A stretch of 64,000 bases of DNA from Sclerotinia nivalis. Lineage: Eukaryota > Ascomycota > Leotiomycetes > Helotiales > Sclerotiniaceae. Shown here in pieces: positions 48,139 through 57,848 of this stretch. The position numbers were made by a program, and so were the translations under genes. The stretch spans positions 620,001 to 684,000 of the forward strand of contig JAPEIS010000016.1 of the NCBI GenBank assembly GCA_029531795.1. The letters run 5' to 3'. Position 1 is the stretch's first letter. The number at the start of each line of letters is the position of its first letter. The notes beneath the pieces are model-generated. The model was given only the letters and a program-made list of their open reading frames with translations, did no database searches and had not been told where the DNA came from.

Positions 48139-49571
48139 CTATAAATTTATCACACCTAAAAGTGGCAGTTCTCGGCTACTCCCACCAACGTATATATTGT
48201 AAGCCCCCTTCTGTAGCTTCCACATTTGCGATTTAGTATCCCAGGTGCTGAGGTCTCTTCGAGTCAACTCAAAGCCCACTGTCACCTTTTCCCGTGGTGT
48301 GATCTCAATTTTGTTAAAACCTCGAAGCTGTCGGACTGGCCCACCAGGTACTCCAACGTATAGCTGAGCGACTTCTGCGCCATCCATCATTCCTGAATTC
48401 TCAACTTGTACACTTACTTGTGCAATGATATCCCACAAATCCTCCATACCGCCCTCCTTCACCGCCCCGGAAGGGAACTCTGGTAACGGCGATTGTACAA
48501 TTTTTTTTACTGATAGGTTAGAGTACAAGAAAGTGGTATATGACAGCCCATAGCCGAACTCGTACCGCGGAGTAATATTTTGCAAGTCAAAAGCACGATA
48601 ATCGATATAAATGCCTTCTGTAAAGTTCGATTGGGGAAAGTACTCAAACGGAGGTTGCGGAAGGGAGGGGGACAAAAGCAACCCGTAGTCAGACTCATTC
48701 ATAGGAATAGAATACGGGAGTTTACCAGAAGGTGCAGTGTCTCCGTAGAGAATAGAGGCGAGAGCGCGACCAGATTCTTGCCCTGGTAGATGAGCAAATA
48801 TGACAGCGGTAACATTATCGTGGTTGATGAATTGATCTACGAGGCGTACACCAGCGTTATGTATTATAACGATAGTATTGTTACATTGGTCCGCAATCTG
48901 CCTACATGTCAGTTTGAATTACAGCCTTGGTCTAGTGTGATGGTATTCAGCTTACATTGTTGACCAACGCATCGGAGTAATCATCGTGCAAACCAACCCG
49001 ATCAATACTTTCACTAGCAAAAGCATTGATAAACACCAAACATGCATCTGATGCCGGGTCGACGTTTGCTGTCGCATTAACGTTGATGAAGTCCCAGAAG
49101 ATGCTACCCCCATCATCAAAGGCCCGCTGGCGTATTGCATCGAAAGGCGAACTGATGTATGAGGGGTTATTAGAACCGGAACCGCCTCCACTGATCAGTG
49201 TGCCGTTTATCGCAATTTGTGATATGGGTGTATCTGGTTGGTAATCAAGAAAATATGGAAGAGCCTCATTTATATCGGCAATTTCAAACCCATATGTCCA
49301 TGATGAATAGCCCGGCCCGGGATTATTTTGATCAGGGGCCTTCGCATCGTAGCCAAATAACGAAAGAAGTTTTGGGGACCTCAATGGTAGGGCATTATCC
49401 ACATTCTTCACCAATACATGACCTTGTACTGCACTCTCAAGCAATATTTGCTTCGAGGCGGGGTCTCTTCCGTTGATTGACGTATGAGGTTTGAGAAGAT
49501 CATACGGGATGCCGCTGCCAGGTGACGGGCAAGTTTCATCCTGACCCATCTGATACCACGTTGCCAAAATC
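48139..49571 (-). pseudogene. GH3 beta-glucosidase, C-terminal half (gene split by inversion)
   Basis: Two exons, 49571-48956 and 48897-48139, separated by a consensus intron. The first begins with ILATWYQMGQDETCP, the point where GH3 beta-glucosidases leave the barrel. It continues through the alpha/beta sandwich (KNVDNALPLRSPKLLSLFGY), PGQESGRALASILYGD, the SGKLPYS segment and RYEFGYGLSYTTF, and ends with a fibronectin type III-like domain (VQVENSGMMDGAEVAQLYV). No internal stop is seen. The upstream splice acceptor (AAG at 49574-49572) is present, but the exon that should precede it lies 7 kb away at 56447-56512 on the other strand. Alone, this half lacks signal peptide and nucleophile. 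Confidence 0.88.
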
Positions 49572-49589
49572 CTTGATTGCTGTTTCAGC

Positions 49590-50124
49590 TCTCGTAGGAG
49601 GTTGATCGGATAATAATAAATAATATAATAATAATACTATAATATTATTTATTATAATAGTGGAAGACTTAGTCGTATTTAGCTTAGGAGTGATCGAATA
49701 TATGAACAATAGAATATTGAAGTCAGAATTATATATATATTGAATATTGAATTTTTTATCTGCTTATTTTTTTTTTTCGAAGAATTCTTTGAAGAAGATC
49801 TTCGTATTTATAGATTTTAATGAGATTCTACACTATTCTATGATTATAAATAAGATCGATTTAAATCGAATCTTATAGAATCATTTTATATAATAAAAGG
49901 AAATAATAACCAATAGTATTCAATCTGAGAATAAGAAAATTCTATATGCTTCCATTTCATTCTATTCCATTATAAATCATTCTGATATGATATATGATCG
50001 AAATTTTATATAATAATAAAATTTAATAATATGAAATCATATTATTAATATATCACGTGATCATATAACTATTGGTTCGGTAAATATTATTAAGTGTTTT
50101 AATAACTTATTAGGAATTCTCACA
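49590..50124 (-). mobile_element. solo-LTR-like repeat, left copy (535 bp)
   Basis: On the minus strand it starts TGTGAGAATTCC and ends CCTCCTACGAGA. It matches 56554-57091 in inverse orientation with no difference that I can find, except an A/T run of 11 versus 14. The flanks are TCAGC (49585-49589) and ATATG (50125-50129). They do not match each other but match the flanks of the other copy. The size, TG start, TATAAATA box and 5-bp duplications fit a solo LTR of a Ty1/copia-type element, although the end is GA rather than CA. Confidence 0.8.
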
Positions 50125-51128
50125 ATATGTGCCTTGATAAACCCATCAATTTGAGTACCATATGAACGTTTCAGGCTGCTAAAACAGCCAACATCAAGTG
50201 GTTGAGTTAAATGACTTGAATGTGGTGGTAATTTTAAACAGATAATATCATTCTCTTTGCAATACGACTGAAAAGGTACTGATTCATGGCTTTCATGCCC
50301 ATCTAGTACCAACATTCGATATTTGCCCTTTCTTCGATTCTTAGTATGCTTATCGAAGTGTTTCAACCATTCTAAACCTGTCTCATTGTTTGTCCATCCA
50401 TTAGATGTAGGTTTAATAGCCCATTCCGCAGGAAAGTCGGTTTCGGTATACCAATTGGAAAGATGAACCTGTCCTTGAACCACTAGAAATGGAGGTATGG
50501 TTTCACCCTCCCCATTTCCACATATTATTGCTGTAGCCCATTCTCGATTGCCTGGTTGTACTGATTTACTTCTACTGCATCTCTCAGCACTAGTGACAAC
50601 CATTGCAGCACATATAATCCCCATCATAAAGCCTGTTTCGTCGAAATTGTAGAAATCGCTATCGAGAATACCATATTTCACTCGCATATTCGAAACCAAT
50701 CGAAACCACTCTTCAATAAGCTTAAGATCTTCACAAAAAGCTCTTTGAAAGTCATAAACACAATTAAAACACATCTTTAATTCGATTCGACGCTTTACGA
50801 ATCGATACGCCCAGAGCTTCCCAACACACTTTGCACCCCTCGATTCAAGAATATGATTCGCCATATCTTCCACATTTCTGAGTTTAGATAGAAATCCTCT
50901 CATATCCATATCGAATATATACTCAGAAATGATATTCTCTTCTAGTTCTGAAAGATTATAAGATTTAGGTCGATATTCGGAGCGAGGAGTAAAACCATTA
51001 ATTCTACGCTGTAATGTTGTATTCGAGATATTATACATCTTCGCAACTTTTCGAATGCTTATTTTTTTGTTTTTTTGAATAGCTTCGATAGCGAGGAGTA
51101 TACGGGCTTCTTAGTTATTCAAATTCAT
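50125..51128 (-). pseudogene. pogo/Fot1 transposase, N-terminal and catalytic part (copy 2)
   Basis: From ATG 51128 the frame runs MNLNN, then a TAA (51113-51111), then an open frame to the LTR junction at KAHI. It holds a psq-like HTH (SIRKVAKMYNIS), a CENP-B-type second HTH (GKLWAYRFVKRRIELKM) and a DDE domain. The acidic residues lie in YNFDETGFMMG, MLVLDGHESHES and HLTQPLDVGCFSSLK, so the triad is complete. The early stop (CAA to TAA type) and loss of the C-terminal half make it inactive in the present arrangement. Confidence 0.85.
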
Positions 51129-51226
51129 TATAGATTGTTGATAAAACGCGTGTTGAAAGAGAAGAGATTGAATTGAGGTGAAAGTGACCCACACACTGAT
51201 ATGACCCGCACACTGATAAACCACGT
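50125..51226 (-). mobile_element. pogo/Fot1 transposon copy 2, 5' half
   Basis: Bounded on the right by a terminal inverted repeat ending CCACGT at 51226 and a TA (51227-51228), and on the left by the LTR. It is the partner of 57092-57846; together they give a 1.85-kb element once the duplicated CATAT is counted once. The terminal repeat carries ATCAGTGTG motifs where copy 1 has ATCACCGAG. Confidence 0.85.
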
Positions 51227-51228
51227 TA

Positions 51229-52218
51229 TGTCATATATGAATACCACCCACTATATTGATATATATTCATCAACTAGACAAATAAAAACTCGATAAACTT
51301 AGTGCGGAATGAGAGGTCCTCAAGTTAACGAAAATCACTACTATTTTACAGGAAGAGTATTCCGCATCAATATCAAGAATACGATATATTTAAGTTAAGC
51401 ATGTCAAATTATCAATATTGTATAGAATACTAGTGACTTAAGTTGAATATGGATATCAATCTCAACTCTTAAAATCGCTCGTGTGGTTGAGAAGAATACA
51501 GATGACGTAGTAACTACGATTTGTAGGCCCCAATTATCAATATTTATTTTGCCTAAAGAGCTATCCATGTATGGGAAGTAGTAGCCCTTATGTAGGGCCT
51601 ACTGAAAGAGCTAGTCTCTTTCGCGTTCGCTCAGGTGTATGGTATAGTGGTCATTATATCGAAGTCATTCACCTACGTTCACACGAGTGTAACTCATGAT
51701 ACTAACCCTAACACCTTCTTTTCACTATTAGATGATTGATATATTGTTGCAATTAGATGCGGCCCAAAGTTATGAGCCGCAGGTAAAACTGTCACCACCT
51801 TCCAGCCACCTTGATCGAAAGATTTTGTTTTGACTTCTCTTACTTTGAACATTCTTATTTAGACACCTCTTACTTATTCATTTCTTTCTACTATAGCTAT
51901 ATGTATATAGATTGATTTCATTAAAATACTAGAACTCATCTAAATAAAGTGATTATATAAGAGAAGCCAAAATAAGAATCATTTAGAATCAGAGGGGCTG
52001 ATTTTGAAACCCACTATTCTTCGTTTTGACATTAGCAATACCACGTTTTAGAACCTTGCATAACAGTTTAACGCGCTCGGTCACATTTCACTTCTTTTCT
52101 TATCTTATCTCTCATATAGAATTATGGTTTTGAGCCTTTCCACTTTTCTAGATCCCTGTCAAATTATAATCTTGGGGGGGCGGTTAGCCGTGGCCAGAAC
52201 TCTTACATGATTCCATTA
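51229..52218. other. intergenic AT-rich region with a stray mariner-type end
   Basis: No gene. 52194-52207 (CCAGAACTCTTACA) matches the terminal repeat of the mariner-like element at 42954-44284, so a remnant of a related element may end here. Its other end is not visible. Confidence 0.45.
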
Positions 52219-52546
52219 CAGTAGAACTTGGTTATACCGGAATGAAAAATTGGACCAATAAGATCCGGTATAAAAAATAGTGATTCAAGCGTCCCAGTCA
52301 ATATTTGTATCCGATTTCAGCTCCAAACCCCAATATTTTTGAAAAATATCATGTGATAACAGCCAATCAAGCTTATTCAGCCAAATCTACCACCAAAACT
52401 TATACCGGATTCGCAAAAAAGTGTCCTGGATTCCGGGTTTACTCAAAAATCCGGTATTCCCATATAAAAAGTAGTCAAATCAGGAAATTATGCCGGTATT
52501 TTCAGGATTTCGGTATATCCCAGTCCGATATAGCCAAGTTCTACTG
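52219..52546. mobile_element. 328-bp MITE (pogo-like)
   Basis: Terminal inverted repeats begin CAGTAGAACTTGG on both ends (52219-52231 and the complement at 52534-52546). The left flank is TA; the right is CA, probably a decayed TA. The interior has several CCGGTAT/CCGGAT direct and inverted repeats and no transposase, which fits a non-autonomous element. Confidence 0.75.
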
Positions 52547-52954
52547 CAGTAGCATTATTTCGGATTGTTATCTTCTTAAGTTATCTCGTAAGACTTTATG
52601 TCGGGTTCGGCAGTTCGAGTCATTATCCGCTGCCTTCAAATAATTGAGGCGGATGGTTTCCCGTCTTCATAATCTTAAGTCTGGCCAAGAAACTCTTTGT
52701 GCTAGCTCCGGAAAATCCGACGTCAGGGTAAAAGAAACTCTCACACGGGGCCCACCGTTGTCTCCGCGTTCAATTAGTATCCCCTAACCCTGTCTCGGTT
52801 CCAAAGCATCGGGACATTTAATTCCTAATTTGAATAGGCCCTTACCGTAGAACATTGATACCCCGAAATTACCCCGACGACGTCTCGTTTTGGGCACAAG
52901 ATCAAATAACACACAGACGTGTGATTACAAATTCTGGCCGTCGGCCATGAAATC

Positions 52955-53187
52955 TTGCCGATCTCGTAAACCAATTCAAGCGTAGTATCTCCCTTGAGCT
53001 TGGATGTACCCGGATCGAAAAGATGTAATAAATTATACCCCTCACTTTTCTAACAGTTACTACCTCTATATTGCCAATCTTGTAAATCAATTCAAGTATA
53101 GTATCTCCCTTGAGCTTGGATATACCCAGACCGGAAAGATGTAATAAGTTATACCCCTCACTTTTCTAATGGTTACTGCCTCTATGT
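52955..53187. repeat. tandem duplication, 116-bp unit
   Basis: Two consecutive copies of about 116 bp, each containing GTATCTCCCTTGAGCTTGGA (52985 and 53101), with a third beginning at 53188. The copies differ mostly by transitions. It is non-coding. Confidence 0.7.
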
Positions 53188-53724
53188 TGCCGGAAGCTAT
53201 AATATGCATTCCGGATGCAAGTAAACCCTTGTCATGACATGATAAAATTATTATCATCACGAAGTATGGCATACAACCTCATCTTTAATCATATCGAACA
53301 GCGTGAATACTCTCGGGATACAATCATCATTGTACGATGGTGGAGACAGGGAATCCGACAACATCCGTAGACAATGTGTTCCAACACTTCGATCTTCTAT
53401 CACATCACTCACTTGAGTTGTTGAATGTACAAGATCTCAACTTTCTAGGATTTTCATCTTCATCTAGGACTCGACATAGAGTTCTATCGACACAACGAAT
53501 CAGTTAGAGTTTTTATATGTCAATGTATTATGAACGGTTTTGGATCATATATATGCTTTTGATCAGAGTACAATTTGTATCATACTAGAAGGGCTTATAA
53601 GTACAAAGTATTCCTACCTGGACCCAAGACTCCTCATCGTCGCTTTCACATACTCGAATATCAATCAGAGAAACGAAAACTCTTTGATAACTATTACTTG
53701 ATTTTATCTATAATTTATATTCAG

Positions 53725-54473
53725 ATGATGGATGAAGTATACCCATACTTTCCTTCAGAATTCATCTATCCCTCACAAGCTCAATACGATCCCTCTTATT
53801 TCGTTCCGCAATATATGGCCCTTCAACAAGAACTGATTCAGGGGGCTTTTTACAACCATACAACATCTTTGCTTCCTTCGCTTGATTCAACATCTTTATT
53901 ATCTCTGCCTCTATTTGACACATCATCTTCACCACCTCTTCTTTCATTCGACATGACATCGTCAATAAATCTACCTACATCTGATATAGTGAGATCTTCA
54001 CCTTCATATTCGCCTTTCGAAAATAATGCCCCATTTATTCACTGGAGAGAGAAATTTCACTTGAAAATTCAATTGATGCATTGGAAGAGGGAAAACAAAA
54101 GCTGGAACTTAATAATAGATGAATTTGCCAAGAAAGGTATTAGGAGGAGCAATATGTCATGTTGGTACTCATACTACAATAGAACCCTAAAGGAGGTCAG
54201 TATTCTTATATTCAACTTGTATGAAAATAACTAATATTTACTTAGATGAATCATCTTAAAGATGCGGTTCAAGCAGATATTGTATACAAGTGCGAACGTT
54301 TAGGAGAGTCAATTTTAGACCCATACATGAGGCAGGCGGATTATGACGGATGTTGGGAGAGAATTTCTGCATTGATGGAAATGCATTGTAGTAGATGGAC
54401 TGCAGCTCGAGTCAAATATGCATGGACTCATGGTGTAGCGGATCTTTTCCCCGACCTTGTATTAAGTTCATGA
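53725..54473 (+). CDS. hypothetical protein, possible DNA-binding-like helices
   Basis: Not recognised. Exons 53725-54195 and 54246-54473 are joined by a 50-base intron (GTCAGT donor, TTTACTTAG acceptor) in phase, 232 aa. The first part is Ser/Pro/Leu-rich (PSLDSTSLLSLPLFDTSSSP). The second part is helical with spaced Trp: WREKFHLKIQLMHWKREN, SCWYSYYNRTLKE and WERISALMEMHCSRWTAARV. That spacing recalls SANT/Myb-like helices, but I would not call a domain. It lies wholly inside the inverted 50125-56553 segment. Confidence 0.5.
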
Positions 54474-55051
54474 TGATACTGGGATTTCCATTGAAAACTT
54501 CATTGTTTATTATTATTATTTTCGTTTTCTCAACAAAGAGAGTCATCGCATGATGATTAGTAACTAGATAATTGATTTTAAAAAGCATTAAACGTGTAAC
54601 TAGACGTTAATTAGTAGTTAATTTAGGGGAATATCCTTAGATCTATTTTCCTTCCTTTAAACAACTTGATTTGTAATTTCTGAAGTTGAATGTAGATAGA
54701 AGAGTTTATTCTATGGCTGGGCATACTTTAGTGACGAAAAAATGCATTGTGTATCGACTTACGAAAAATCGACATATTTATAGTTAGTTATTTACATCTT
54801 ATTATTATCATGTATCTATCGCGGAAGCATCTTTTTAATCCTGACTTCTCACTTTAGTTGGTTGAAATGTGATTTTAACCGCTACAAATTGTGGATTCTT
54901 ATTTTTGTTAGTTGGTTGATGTCTCAAGCCGAGCTTTCTTTATTGAATTACAAATTCTATGAACTTTATAAAGAGTAACTGCGACCTTATCAAAAGATAC
55001 AAAGATATCAAATCATTCATCTTTATTATTCATCTCACTTTATATTCAAGT
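54474..55051. other. intergenic; upstream of the GH3 first half
   Basis: 578 AT-rich bases. An in-frame ATG at 54959 precedes the chosen GH3 start but adds a non-signal-peptide stretch. Confidence 0.5.
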
Positions 55052-56512
55052 ATGTCTACACGCAGAGTGTTGTCTTTAGCGTTATTCGCCTCGGGATCAT
55101 TAGTTAGTCGTTCTATCGCGTACAATATTATGAACAAAAGCTATTTCGATAATGATTCTCCCCCTATATATCCAAGCCGTATGTTTGCATGCCGACAAAT
55201 GCTTCTTTCTTATTGAAAATCAGGAATAGAGAACTAATATATGTTACAGCTATCGGCACCGGTACTCCTTTATGGAAAGACTCTTATGTGAAGGCTATGT
55301 CCATGATAGATCATATGACGACTGAAGAAAAGGTTAGTCATTCAATCAATATTCTTCATTTTTACGGTAGATGTTGATAACCTTAGTCCAAACTCACCAC
55401 AGGTGCCATGAACACAGGCAATGGGTGCTCGGGAATCATCCCAGCGATCCCACGTGTCGGTTTCCCAGGAATGTGTTTTCAGGATTCGGGCAACGGTGTT
55501 AGAGGTGTAGAGTTTTCAAGTAGCTTTCCGAGCGGTATTCACGTTGGAGCAAGGTAATTGTTCTCAGTATAACTCGATTTACTCGTGCTAATTTACTAGC
55601 TGGAACAAAACACTCGCTTATCAACGAGCATCCGTCATGGCTGGTGAGTTTCGCGCACTTGGTGTCAACGTTGTACTTGGTCCAGGTATGTGATTTTTTT
55701 TAATAGCTCGAAACAAGTTCTTCGACTAATATGAACAGTTGTCGGGCCACTTGGACGCGTGGCTCAGGGAGGCAGAAATTGGGAAGGTAAACTCAGTATT
55801 TCAGTCATCTCATCACTTAAAAAGCTAATTTTTCCCCGAGGGTTTTCAAATGATCCATATCTTTGTGGTTCATTGGCTTCCGAGACGGTTTATGGAATAC
55901 AAGCGCAAGGGGTTATAGCTAGTACCAAGGTAGGCTTTTACATCATGCGTCTTTCTAATACACGACAAATCTGACCTCTTGAATTTGTAGCACTTCATTG
56001 GTTATGAACAGGAGACTAACAGGAACCCTGTCACCTCTATGCCTGGTCAGAATATTGAGTCAATTTCTTCAAACATTGATGATAAGAACATGCACGAGCT
56101 TTATCTGTGGCCTTTTCAAGGGAAGTCAATCTCATCTACATGTCAATTTTTTCTAATGCTCTTCTAGATGCCGTACACGCTGGTACTGGCAGCATTATGT
56201 GTTCTTACAATTAGATCAATAATACCTACGGCTGTCAAAACAGTAAGACACTGAATGGGTTATTGAAAACAGAGTTAGGATTCAATGGATTTGTGGTTTC
56301 AGATTGGGATGCTCAACATTCAGGATTTGTATCCGCACTTTCAGGCTTGGATGTAGCAATGGTATTACCAGGTAAGAACAAAACATGAAGTACCTGGCCT
56401 TCCTCTGAAACATTTGAGAAATAGGCTATGAAGTTTTCTGGGGCCCAAATCTAACGACGGCCGTCAACAACAATTCCATGCCGATATCAAGGCTAGATGA
56501 TATGGCTACAAG
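55052..56512 (+). pseudogene. GH3 beta-glucosidase, N-terminal half (gene split by inversion, also mutated)
   Basis: Starts with a signal peptide (RRVLSLALFASGSLVSRSIA). Short exons then give the GH3 barrel: [64 protein letters not shown] and HFIGYEQE. The nucleophile region is [13 protein letters not shown] and the end is RLDDMATR at the donor 56513. Introns have good sites except one donor at 56121, which reads GG instead of GT. The next exon has TAG at 56212-56214 where family members have Gln (SYN-Q-INNTYGC). The half therefore carries two lesions beside the split. The C-terminal half is at 48139-49571 on the other strand. Confidence 0.88.
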
Positions 56513-56553
56513 GTGAGATAGAGATACAATGGGCCATTTGAAACATTTGCTGA

Positions 56554-57091
56554 TGTGAGAATTCCTAATAAGTTATTAAAACACTTAATAATATTTACCG
56601 AACCAATAGTTATATGATCACGTGATATATTAATAATATGATTTCATATTATTAAATTTTATTATTATATAAAATTTCGATCATATATCATATCAGAATG
56701 ATTTATAATGGAATAGAATGAAATGGAAGCATATAGAATTTTCTTATTCTCAGATTGAATACTATTGGTTATTATTTCCTTTTATTATATAAAATGATTC
56801 TATAAGATTCGATTTAAATCGATCTTATTTATAATCATAGAATAGTGTAGAATCTCATTAAAATCTATAAATACGAAGATCTTCTTCAAAGAATTCTTCG
56901 AAAAAAAAAAAAAATAAGCAGATAAAAAATTCAATATTCAATATATATATAATTCTGACTTCAATATTCTATTGTTCATATATTCGATCACTCCTAAGCT
57001 AAATACGACTAAGTCTTCCACTATTATAATAAATAATATTATAGTATTATTATTATATTATTTATTATTATCCGATCAACCTCCTACGAGA
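56554..57091 (+). mobile_element. solo-LTR-like repeat, right copy (538 bp)
   Basis: Inverse twin of 49590-50124; the only difference seen is a poly-A of 14 instead of 11. Starts TGTGAGAATTCC and ends CCTCCTACGAGA, with a TATAAATA at 56866-56873. Flanks are GCTGA (56549-56553) and CATAT (57092-57096), which again do not match each other. Confidence 0.8.
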
Positions 57092-57739
57092 CATATCAAT
57101 CATATTTCGAAAGTTGAATTCTTTATAGCTTTCAAAGCTGCATACCAAGAATCAATTACGATTCAGAATATGAAATCAGGGTTTCGAGGAACAGGTTTAA
57201 TACCATTTGATCCTGAAGCTGTACTTTCGAAACTAGATATTCGAATTCGCACACCTACTCCCCCCTCTTTCGATCAAGATTTATGGACTTCTCAAACCCC
57301 TCACAACCCAACTGAAGCTCTTTCACAATCGACTTTAGTAAGATCTCGAATGGCTCGTCATCAATCAAGCTCTCCTACACCTATATTCGAGACTGTATTA
57401 GCTTTAGCTAAGGGTACAAAGAGATTAGCACATGAAAATACACTTTTAAATGCAGAGATTCGTATACTTCGGGCAGCAAATGAGGCATTAAGCAAGCGTC
57501 GACGCGCAAAAAAAACTCAATTACGTCAAGGAGGAGTGCTTACTGGACAAGAGGCTACCGATATATTATCTCAGCAAGAGGTTGATATTCAGATTCAACA
57601 CGACGAGCGTCAAAAAGGGGGGAATTCTAATGGGGAAGCATCTTCTAGTCGATGCTGTAGTAAGTGTGGAAAGACTGGGCATAATACAAGGACTTGTCAA
57701 AATAATGTAATAGATCCTAGATTATTAGAATCTTTATAG
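57092..57739 (+). pseudogene. pogo/Fot1 transposase, C-terminal part with CCHC zinc knuckle (copy 2)
   Basis: The open frame continues exactly where the N-terminal half breaks: INHISKVEFFIAFKAAYQES, then GFRGTGLIPFDPEAVLSKL, the standard C-terminal block of Fot1/pogo transposases. A helical basic region follows (SKRRRAKKTQLRQGG), then a single CCHC knuckle (CCSKCGKTGHNTRTC), ending at 57739. No stop interrupts this half. The knuckle probably binds nucleic acid. Confidence 0.85.
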
Positions 57740-57846
57740 TTTTAATCAATTGATTTAATTGTTGTTGAATAATATGGGTTTGAAAGAGTGAATTGAGGTG
57801 AAAGTGACCCACACACTGATATGACCCGCACACTGATAAACCACGT
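57092..57846 (+). mobile_element. pogo/Fot1 transposon copy 2, 3' half
   Basis: Runs from the LTR to a terminal inverted repeat ending CCACGT at 57846, followed by TA (57847-57848). Its terminal repeat is the same as the one at the 51226 end, including the ATCAGTGTG motifs. Confidence 0.85.
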
Positions 57847-57848
57847 TA

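Follow-up and report, generated by a model that had tools for sequence, protein, structure and literature searches.

Introduction

In Drosophila buzzatii the inversion 2z3 was generated by the transposon Galileo, and swapped target-site duplications around its oppositely oriented copies provided the key evidence for ectopic recombination (passages at hand of PMC2775673, which also mention Ty-mediated rearrangements in yeast). Here we describe a comparable arrangement in the fungus Sclerotinia nivalis, found in a window of 64,000 nucleotides (assembly GCA_029531795.1, contig JAPEIS010000016.1, positions 620,001 to 684,000 of the forward strand; window coordinates are used below), where two solo long terminal repeats (LTRs) of one Ty1/copia retrotransposon family bound an inverted segment of 6.4 kb and stand between the halves of both a GH3 beta-glucosidase gene and a pogo transposon. 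As in 2z3, copies of the same element lie in opposite orientation at the breakpoints and their target-site duplications are swapped; however, Galileo is described in those passages as a DNA transposon of the P superfamily with 7-bp duplications and chimeric copies (PMC2775673), whereas the S. nivalis elements are solo copia LTRs with 5-bp duplications, the segments span 6-90 kb, and four cases occur in one genome.

Two fungal systems are also comparable. Among 640 LTR elements of Mycosphaerella fijiensis, also a filamentous fungus with mismatched LTR flanks, 125 have differing 5' and 3' insertion sequences, which were read as ectopic recombination with inversion as one possible result; unlike the S. 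nivalis copies they are, in the passages at hand, neither paired into reciprocal events nor accompanied by a breakpoint reconstruction (PMC3562529). Within the genus itself, the mating-type (MAT) locus of S. sclerotiorum undergoes a 3.6-kb inversion between identical 250-bp inverted repeats in each meiotic generation, an event that truncates one gene and is attributed to non-allelic homologous recombination. The kilobase scale and the short identical inverted repeats are common to both species, but the MAT repeats, as the available passages describe them, are not transposon sequence and their flip recurs at every meiotic generation (PMC3574095).

Claims of transposon-generated inversion often rest on a repeat at one breakpoint or on mismatched flanks. 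Rearrangements of human endogenous retroviruses (HERVs) were reportedly deduced from mismatched duplications by Hughes and Coffin in 2001. The Ty and HERV cases resemble the present one in that recombination takes place within one element family and, for the HERVs, in the use of mismatched flanks as a diagnostic; they differ in that both reciprocal products are present and can be paired in S. nivalis, so that each event can be reconstructed. The mechanism of LTR-mediated inversion is already known, and it is the completeness of the evidence and the short-range recurrence that stand out; in the titles and abstract openings searched, a coverage from which subscription journals are mostly absent, no reciprocally paired LTR inversion in a filamentous fungus was found.

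Our reading, to which we give a probability of about 95%, is that two young Ty1/copia copies inserted, were reduced to solo LTRs and crossed over, inverting 6.4 kb and separating the halves of the GH3 gene and of the pogo element. It draws on the identity of the two LTRs, on the exchanged duplications, on empty sites that paralogues and other species' proteins show to be contiguous, and on three more LTR pairs bearing the same signature.

The LTR pair and its exchanged duplications

The elements at the two breakpoints are as follows, the orientation of the LTRs being taken from the open reading frames (ORFs) of a full-length copy, L030.

49590..50124, copia sense on the minus strand: solo LTR, left copy, 535 bp
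56554..57091, copia sense on the plus strand: solo LTR, right copy, 538 bp, the same as the left copy apart from T11/T14
49585..49589: 5-bp flank TCAGC, duplication of the GH3 site (other strand, GCTGA)
50125..50129: 5-bp flank ATATG, duplication of the pogo site (other strand, CATAT)
56549..56553: 5-bp flank GCTGA, duplication of the GH3 site
57092..57096: 5-bp flank CATAT, duplication of the pogo site
50125..56553: inverted segment, 6,429 bp

An initial annotation of the window had described near-identical inverted repeats whose 5-bp flanks (TCAGC and ATATG on the left, GCTGA and CATAT on the right) were swapped, and both points hold. The two copies, one per breakpoint and in opposite orientation, align without a substitution and differ by a single indel in a T-run (11 against 14), the inverted arms measuring 361 nt and 188 nt, both 100% identical. 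Their homology ends at the LTR edges, with no additional base in common on either side. Read in one LTR orientation, the left copy has the form A-LTR-B and the right copy B-LTR-A.

Both LTRs are members of one family, represented in the genome by 137 5'-end and 138 3'-end matches at no more than three mismatches (controls 3 and 0), 12 of the 137 lying outside the position lists. In L030, the one copy scanned, the first ORF contains Retrotran_gag_2, gag_pre-integrs and rve, the last just under its cut-off (31.8 against 32.6 bits), and the second contains RVT_2; the integrase is thus encoded before the reverse transcriptase, which is the Ty1/copia order. The LTRs terminate in TG...GA and not in the TG...CA expected of copia elements, which we take as variation of LTR ends, since both the gene order and the duplications agree with copia. 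The paired LTRs of full-length copies are free of any substitution in 22 of the 24 compared (L033 being excluded), and the family is therefore very young. The inversion must be younger still than the two insertions that it joins.

The sequence of events would begin with two copia copies inserting close to one another and facing opposite ways: an intron of the GH3 gene received one (target GCTGA) and a resident pogo element the other (target CATAT). Each would then have been reduced to a solo LTR, its internal part being lost by recombination between its own LTRs. The two solo LTRs would next have recombined with each other by homologous (ectopic) crossing-over, which inverted the intervening 6.4 kb and in the same step swapped the duplications and parted the two halves both of the gene and of the element. 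What we infer from this arrangement is the agent, homologous crossing-over; the order of events, with solo formation complete in both copies before they recombined; and the fixation of the inversion in the strain.

The empty site in the pogo element

50125..51228, minus strand: pogo/Fot1-like transposon, 5' part, with a terminal repeat at 51161-51228 and a transposase segment containing HTH_psq and DDE_1
57092..57848, plus strand: pogo/Fot1-like transposon, 3' part, with a terminal repeat at 57782-57848 and the C-terminal transposase segment

The pogo/Fot1 class is indicated by a DDE_1 transposase with HTH_psq, by terminal inverted repeats and by a TA target, although the element ends themselves begin with TA, so that a separate TA duplication is indistinguishable from the end of the element. 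At present the terminal repeats (51165-51228 and 57785-57848, 98% identical) are direct, as they must be if one breakpoint of the inversion fell within the element, and flipping 50125-56553 restores their inverted orientation.

Among 198 genomic candidates for the 5' part (50125-51228), 40 full-length matches were scored, a count that includes the part itself. All nine paralogues that were read are contiguous across the joint with no insert, matching the left part over 1,104 bp at 94.9-97.9% and the right part over 752 bp at 94.9-99.3%, with zero indels, and each has a single copy of the target, spelled CATAT in six of them and TATAT in the other three (L014, L017, L018). At the protein level, the four transposases tested among the 120 matches listed, from S. 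nivalis, Botrytis porri, S. sclerotiorum and S. borealis, all align through residues 1-338 on the minus strand and continue from 57092 on the plus strand. The proposal that two halves of a single pogo element had been parted by the flip is supported.

The empty site in the GH3 gene

48139..49571, minus strand: GH3 beta-glucosidase, C-terminal half, two exons, Pfam PF01915 and PF14310, covered by database protein OCU04_012593
55052..56513, plus strand: GH3 beta-glucosidase, N-terminal half, spread over several exons; an in-frame stop lies at 56212-56214
56514..56553, plus strand: 5' part of the GH3 intron hit by the LTR, the rest being 49572-49589 on the minus strand (splice sites placed by eye)

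Database protein OCU04_012593 (450 aa) corresponds to the C-terminal half alone, in which Glyco_hydro_3_C and the Fn3-like domain score above the Pfam cut-off. Two pieces of the N-terminal half were scanned for Glyco_hydro_3, one falling below the cut-off (22 against 27 bits) and the other giving no match; despite this, the half can be aligned to GH3 homologues. Seven of the 120 GH3 matches listed were aligned to the window, one of them being the S. nivalis C-terminal half itself, and in all six others the N-terminal part lies on the plus strand and the C-terminal part on the minus strand. The N-terminal parts begin at 55052-55097 in five of the six, the Botrytis tulipae model beginning at 55840, and the C-terminal parts extend down to 48142-48193. 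Matched to the solved GH3 structure 6jxg, weakly on both sides (E 0.007 and 1.3e-6), the last exon ahead of the joint reaches residue 287 and the first exon beyond the joint begins at residue 288.

The most direct view of the joint comes from the B. tulipae model BTUL_0306g00100 (P0122; 581 aa, 82% identity), the nearest protein of another species among the 120 matches listed. Its residues HLKHLL-KQQSRIL cross the joint uninterrupted and contain the target once; in the window the alignment runs up to 56552 and picks up on the opposite strand from 49588, the two sides sharing one residue, which lies inside the target. The gene model apparently translates the intron by mistake, and the site, as read from the protein, is probably the orthologous empty site in another genus. 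BTUL_0306g00100 has no recognised N-terminal domain and is probably a mis-annotated, decaying GH3 gene.

These comparisons uphold the earlier view that one GH3 gene was split in two, the homologues being contiguous in all six cases tested, and the position at which flipping was said to rejoin the two reading frames, at exact splice and codon positions, is right; the N-terminal half, however, is not intact. Its in-frame stop at 56212-56214 lies in a stretch, 56167-56361, that two homologues align without gaps, and the loss of a working gene is not established. In view of this stop and of the B. tulipae model with no recognised N-terminal domain, we dropped the idea that a working GH3 gene was lost to the inversion. 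Decay of the gene may already have been under way when the LTR arrived: given that the two LTRs do not differ by a single substitution, it may be older than the insertions, though this is not proven.

The genome-wide census of LTR flanks

The flanks of 84 elements (25 full-length, 59 solo) were scored from about 111 placed. Partial copies were excluded (L064, L073, L083, L086, L092, L094, L100, L103), copies with LTR insertions or internal deletions were retained where both ends could be read (L023, L029, L033, L089, L098), and one C5 copy was assembled from L016 and L105. L052, L061 and L074 were admitted by eye; their duplications match only with an LTR end two bases shorter, which points to two end variants in one family.

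An element's own 5-bp duplication is kept in 73 of the 84 copies, that is, in 24 of 25 full-length and 49 of 59 solo elements. Of the 11 copies that have lost it, eight form four reciprocally swapped pairs, three exact and one with a single mismatch: the window pair, C9:2530198/2538700, C1:3636180/3726105 and C1:3800866/3890030, the last with the mismatch. All four are inverted, on the same contig and 7.5-90 kb apart. Swapped flanks occur in 2/3 inverted same-contig pairs at less than 10 kb, in 2/9 at 10-100 kb and in 0/133 beyond, and in none of 3,199 different-contig pairs; the 0/142 for direct same-contig pairs is uninformative, because a deletion between direct copies leaves no reciprocal partner and would be missed. 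Altogether, 4 of the 12 readable inverted pairs within 100 kb have recombined, as against 0 of 3,474 other pairs. An apparent fifth swapped pair within 100 kb proved to be a cross-pair of members from two different events, and the count stays at four. A chance match of flanks was rejected, since three exact reciprocal swaps were observed among the 11 mismatched elements and 8e-5 are expected from base composition (element positions being estimated, for this placement, where a copy is known by its 3' end only). All eight swapped elements are solo, but normal elements are also mostly solo (49/73), and nothing is concluded from this state.

The three further pairs, probable flips that carry the same scar elsewhere in the genome, were put to the test applied at the window. 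Two pass the empty-site test by paralogues. In the second pair (C9:2530198-2538700, L056), inverted solo LTRs with exactly swapped duplications, rejoining the flanks yields an open frame whose joint is spanned by 149 of 150 scored genome matches (206 candidates). The best of these reaches 83% and many contain internal stops; the half that belongs to the pair itself ends at residue 66. In the fourth (C1:3800866-3890030, L076 and L077), inverted at about 89 kb, the rejoined frame of 131 residues is matched over its full length by paralogues at up to 94%, whereas the pair's own halves match residues 1-68 and 52-131 only. The rejoined pieces of these two pairs, which we take to be a LINE-type RNase H in the second and a zinc-knuckle in the fourth, gave no match to Pfam. 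The third pair (C1:3636180-3726105, L075 and L023) is likewise inverted, at about 90 kb, with exactly swapped duplications and a rejoined open frame of 107 residues, and it is on the duplications and this frame that a flip is suggested. Within the LTR of L023 sits a diverged copy of pogo (77-86%) that interrupts it.

One further element deserves mention: L041 (C4:2648972-2655166) is the sole full-length copy of the 25 with mismatched flanks (ACCCT/CCGTG) and is possibly a recombinant. Together with L085 and L096, the other mismatched elements outside the four pairs, it may represent the remnant of a direct-pair deletion.

Weighing the explanations

Several points weigh against an inversion by crossing-over as set out above. 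The window LTRs can be told apart by the length of their T-run alone and are too alike for chimerism to be seen in either; the fourth pair has a mismatch in one duplication (CTCCT/CTTCT); a paralogue search at the joint of the third pair brought up, apart from the pair's two halves themselves, a single short match, and nothing that crosses the joint; no partners for L041, L085 and L096 were found among the elements read; and, of the roughly 111 elements, 19 listed copies were left unread and eight were read but too incomplete to score. The inversion is, moreover, read from one assembly (50.3 Mb, 31 contigs), and assemblies are well known to acquire false inversions at inverted repeats, so that an assembler might have joined the wrong arms at the near-identical repeats while the DNA of the strain is uninverted. 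These repeats are, however, merely 535 bp long in an assembly of 50 Mb and 31 contigs, and 24 of the 25 full-length near-identical copies, each of 5.8 kb, sit between matching duplications, which indicates that longer repeats were resolved; on this ground assembly error was rejected as the main explanation. Furthermore, all four swaps fall within 100 kb although near-identical copies are present on many contigs, and between-contig swaps are absent. An artefact is accordingly very improbable. Still less credible is aberrant (alternative-end) transposition or the joining of double-strand breaks in place of homologous crossing-over. The former is known for cut-and-paste elements and described in passages of the Galileo paper (PMC2775673), whereas copia elements move by copying through RNA; end joining would be unlikely to leave both LTRs complete, and a reciprocal exchange of duplications around complete LTRs, with no base lost or gained, is the outcome of crossing-over.

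A different question is whether the inversion is polymorphic or reversible, with both orientations present in different nuclei, isolates or ascospores and one of the two captured by the assembly; this is compatible with ectopic crossing-over between the solo LTRs and would add recurrence to it. The MAT segment of S. sclerotiorum flips in each meiotic generation, the window repeats are longer than the MAT repeats and identical save for one T-run, and two of the three close inverted pairs are flipped. However, the MAT flip is reported, in the passages at hand, to be absent from mycelial growth and probably regulated (PMC3574095), and there is no sign of such control for the LTRs here. In the close pair C1:3884392/3890030, moreover, the first copy retains its own duplication while the second has recombined with a partner 89 kb away, and all the evidence comes from a single assembly. 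We consider a polymorphic or reversible inversion unlikely. The same doubt attaches to a wider speculation, that Sclerotinia has an efficient short-range pathway for inverting DNA that lies between identical inverted repeats some hundreds of bases long, which would drive the MAT flip of S. sclerotiorum and, in S. nivalis, flip any facing pair of young LTRs within about 100 kb recurrently, perhaps reversibly, and not as a rare accident.

Ectopic recombination between inserted LTRs, as the initial annotation had proposed, is thus supported by the swapped duplications, by the contiguous pogo paralogues and by the contiguous GH3 and transposase homologues, the uninverted arrangement being found in relatives as proteins and in the genome as paralogues. 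The full reciprocal signature survives here, two unrelated reading frames confirm the window inversion, and the same test yields three more pairs in the genome. The rate, distance dependence and recurrence of recombination between inverted repeats thereby become measurable, in a genus in which one species flips its mating-type locus at meiosis.

Other features of the inverted segment

The inverted segment contains three further features. Bounded by imperfect inverted ends of 38 bp (79%), a short element-like stretch at 52207-52558 looks like a small non-coding transposon, and 116-bp units form a tandem pair, 88% alike, at 52952-53183. Upstream of the GH3 N-terminal half lies a two-exon reading frame (53725-54473), for which a search of Pfam gave no match. 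The start of the B. tulipae model (MHCSRW...) resembles the second exon of this frame, which suggests that the GH3 gene has the same neighbour in B. tulipae.

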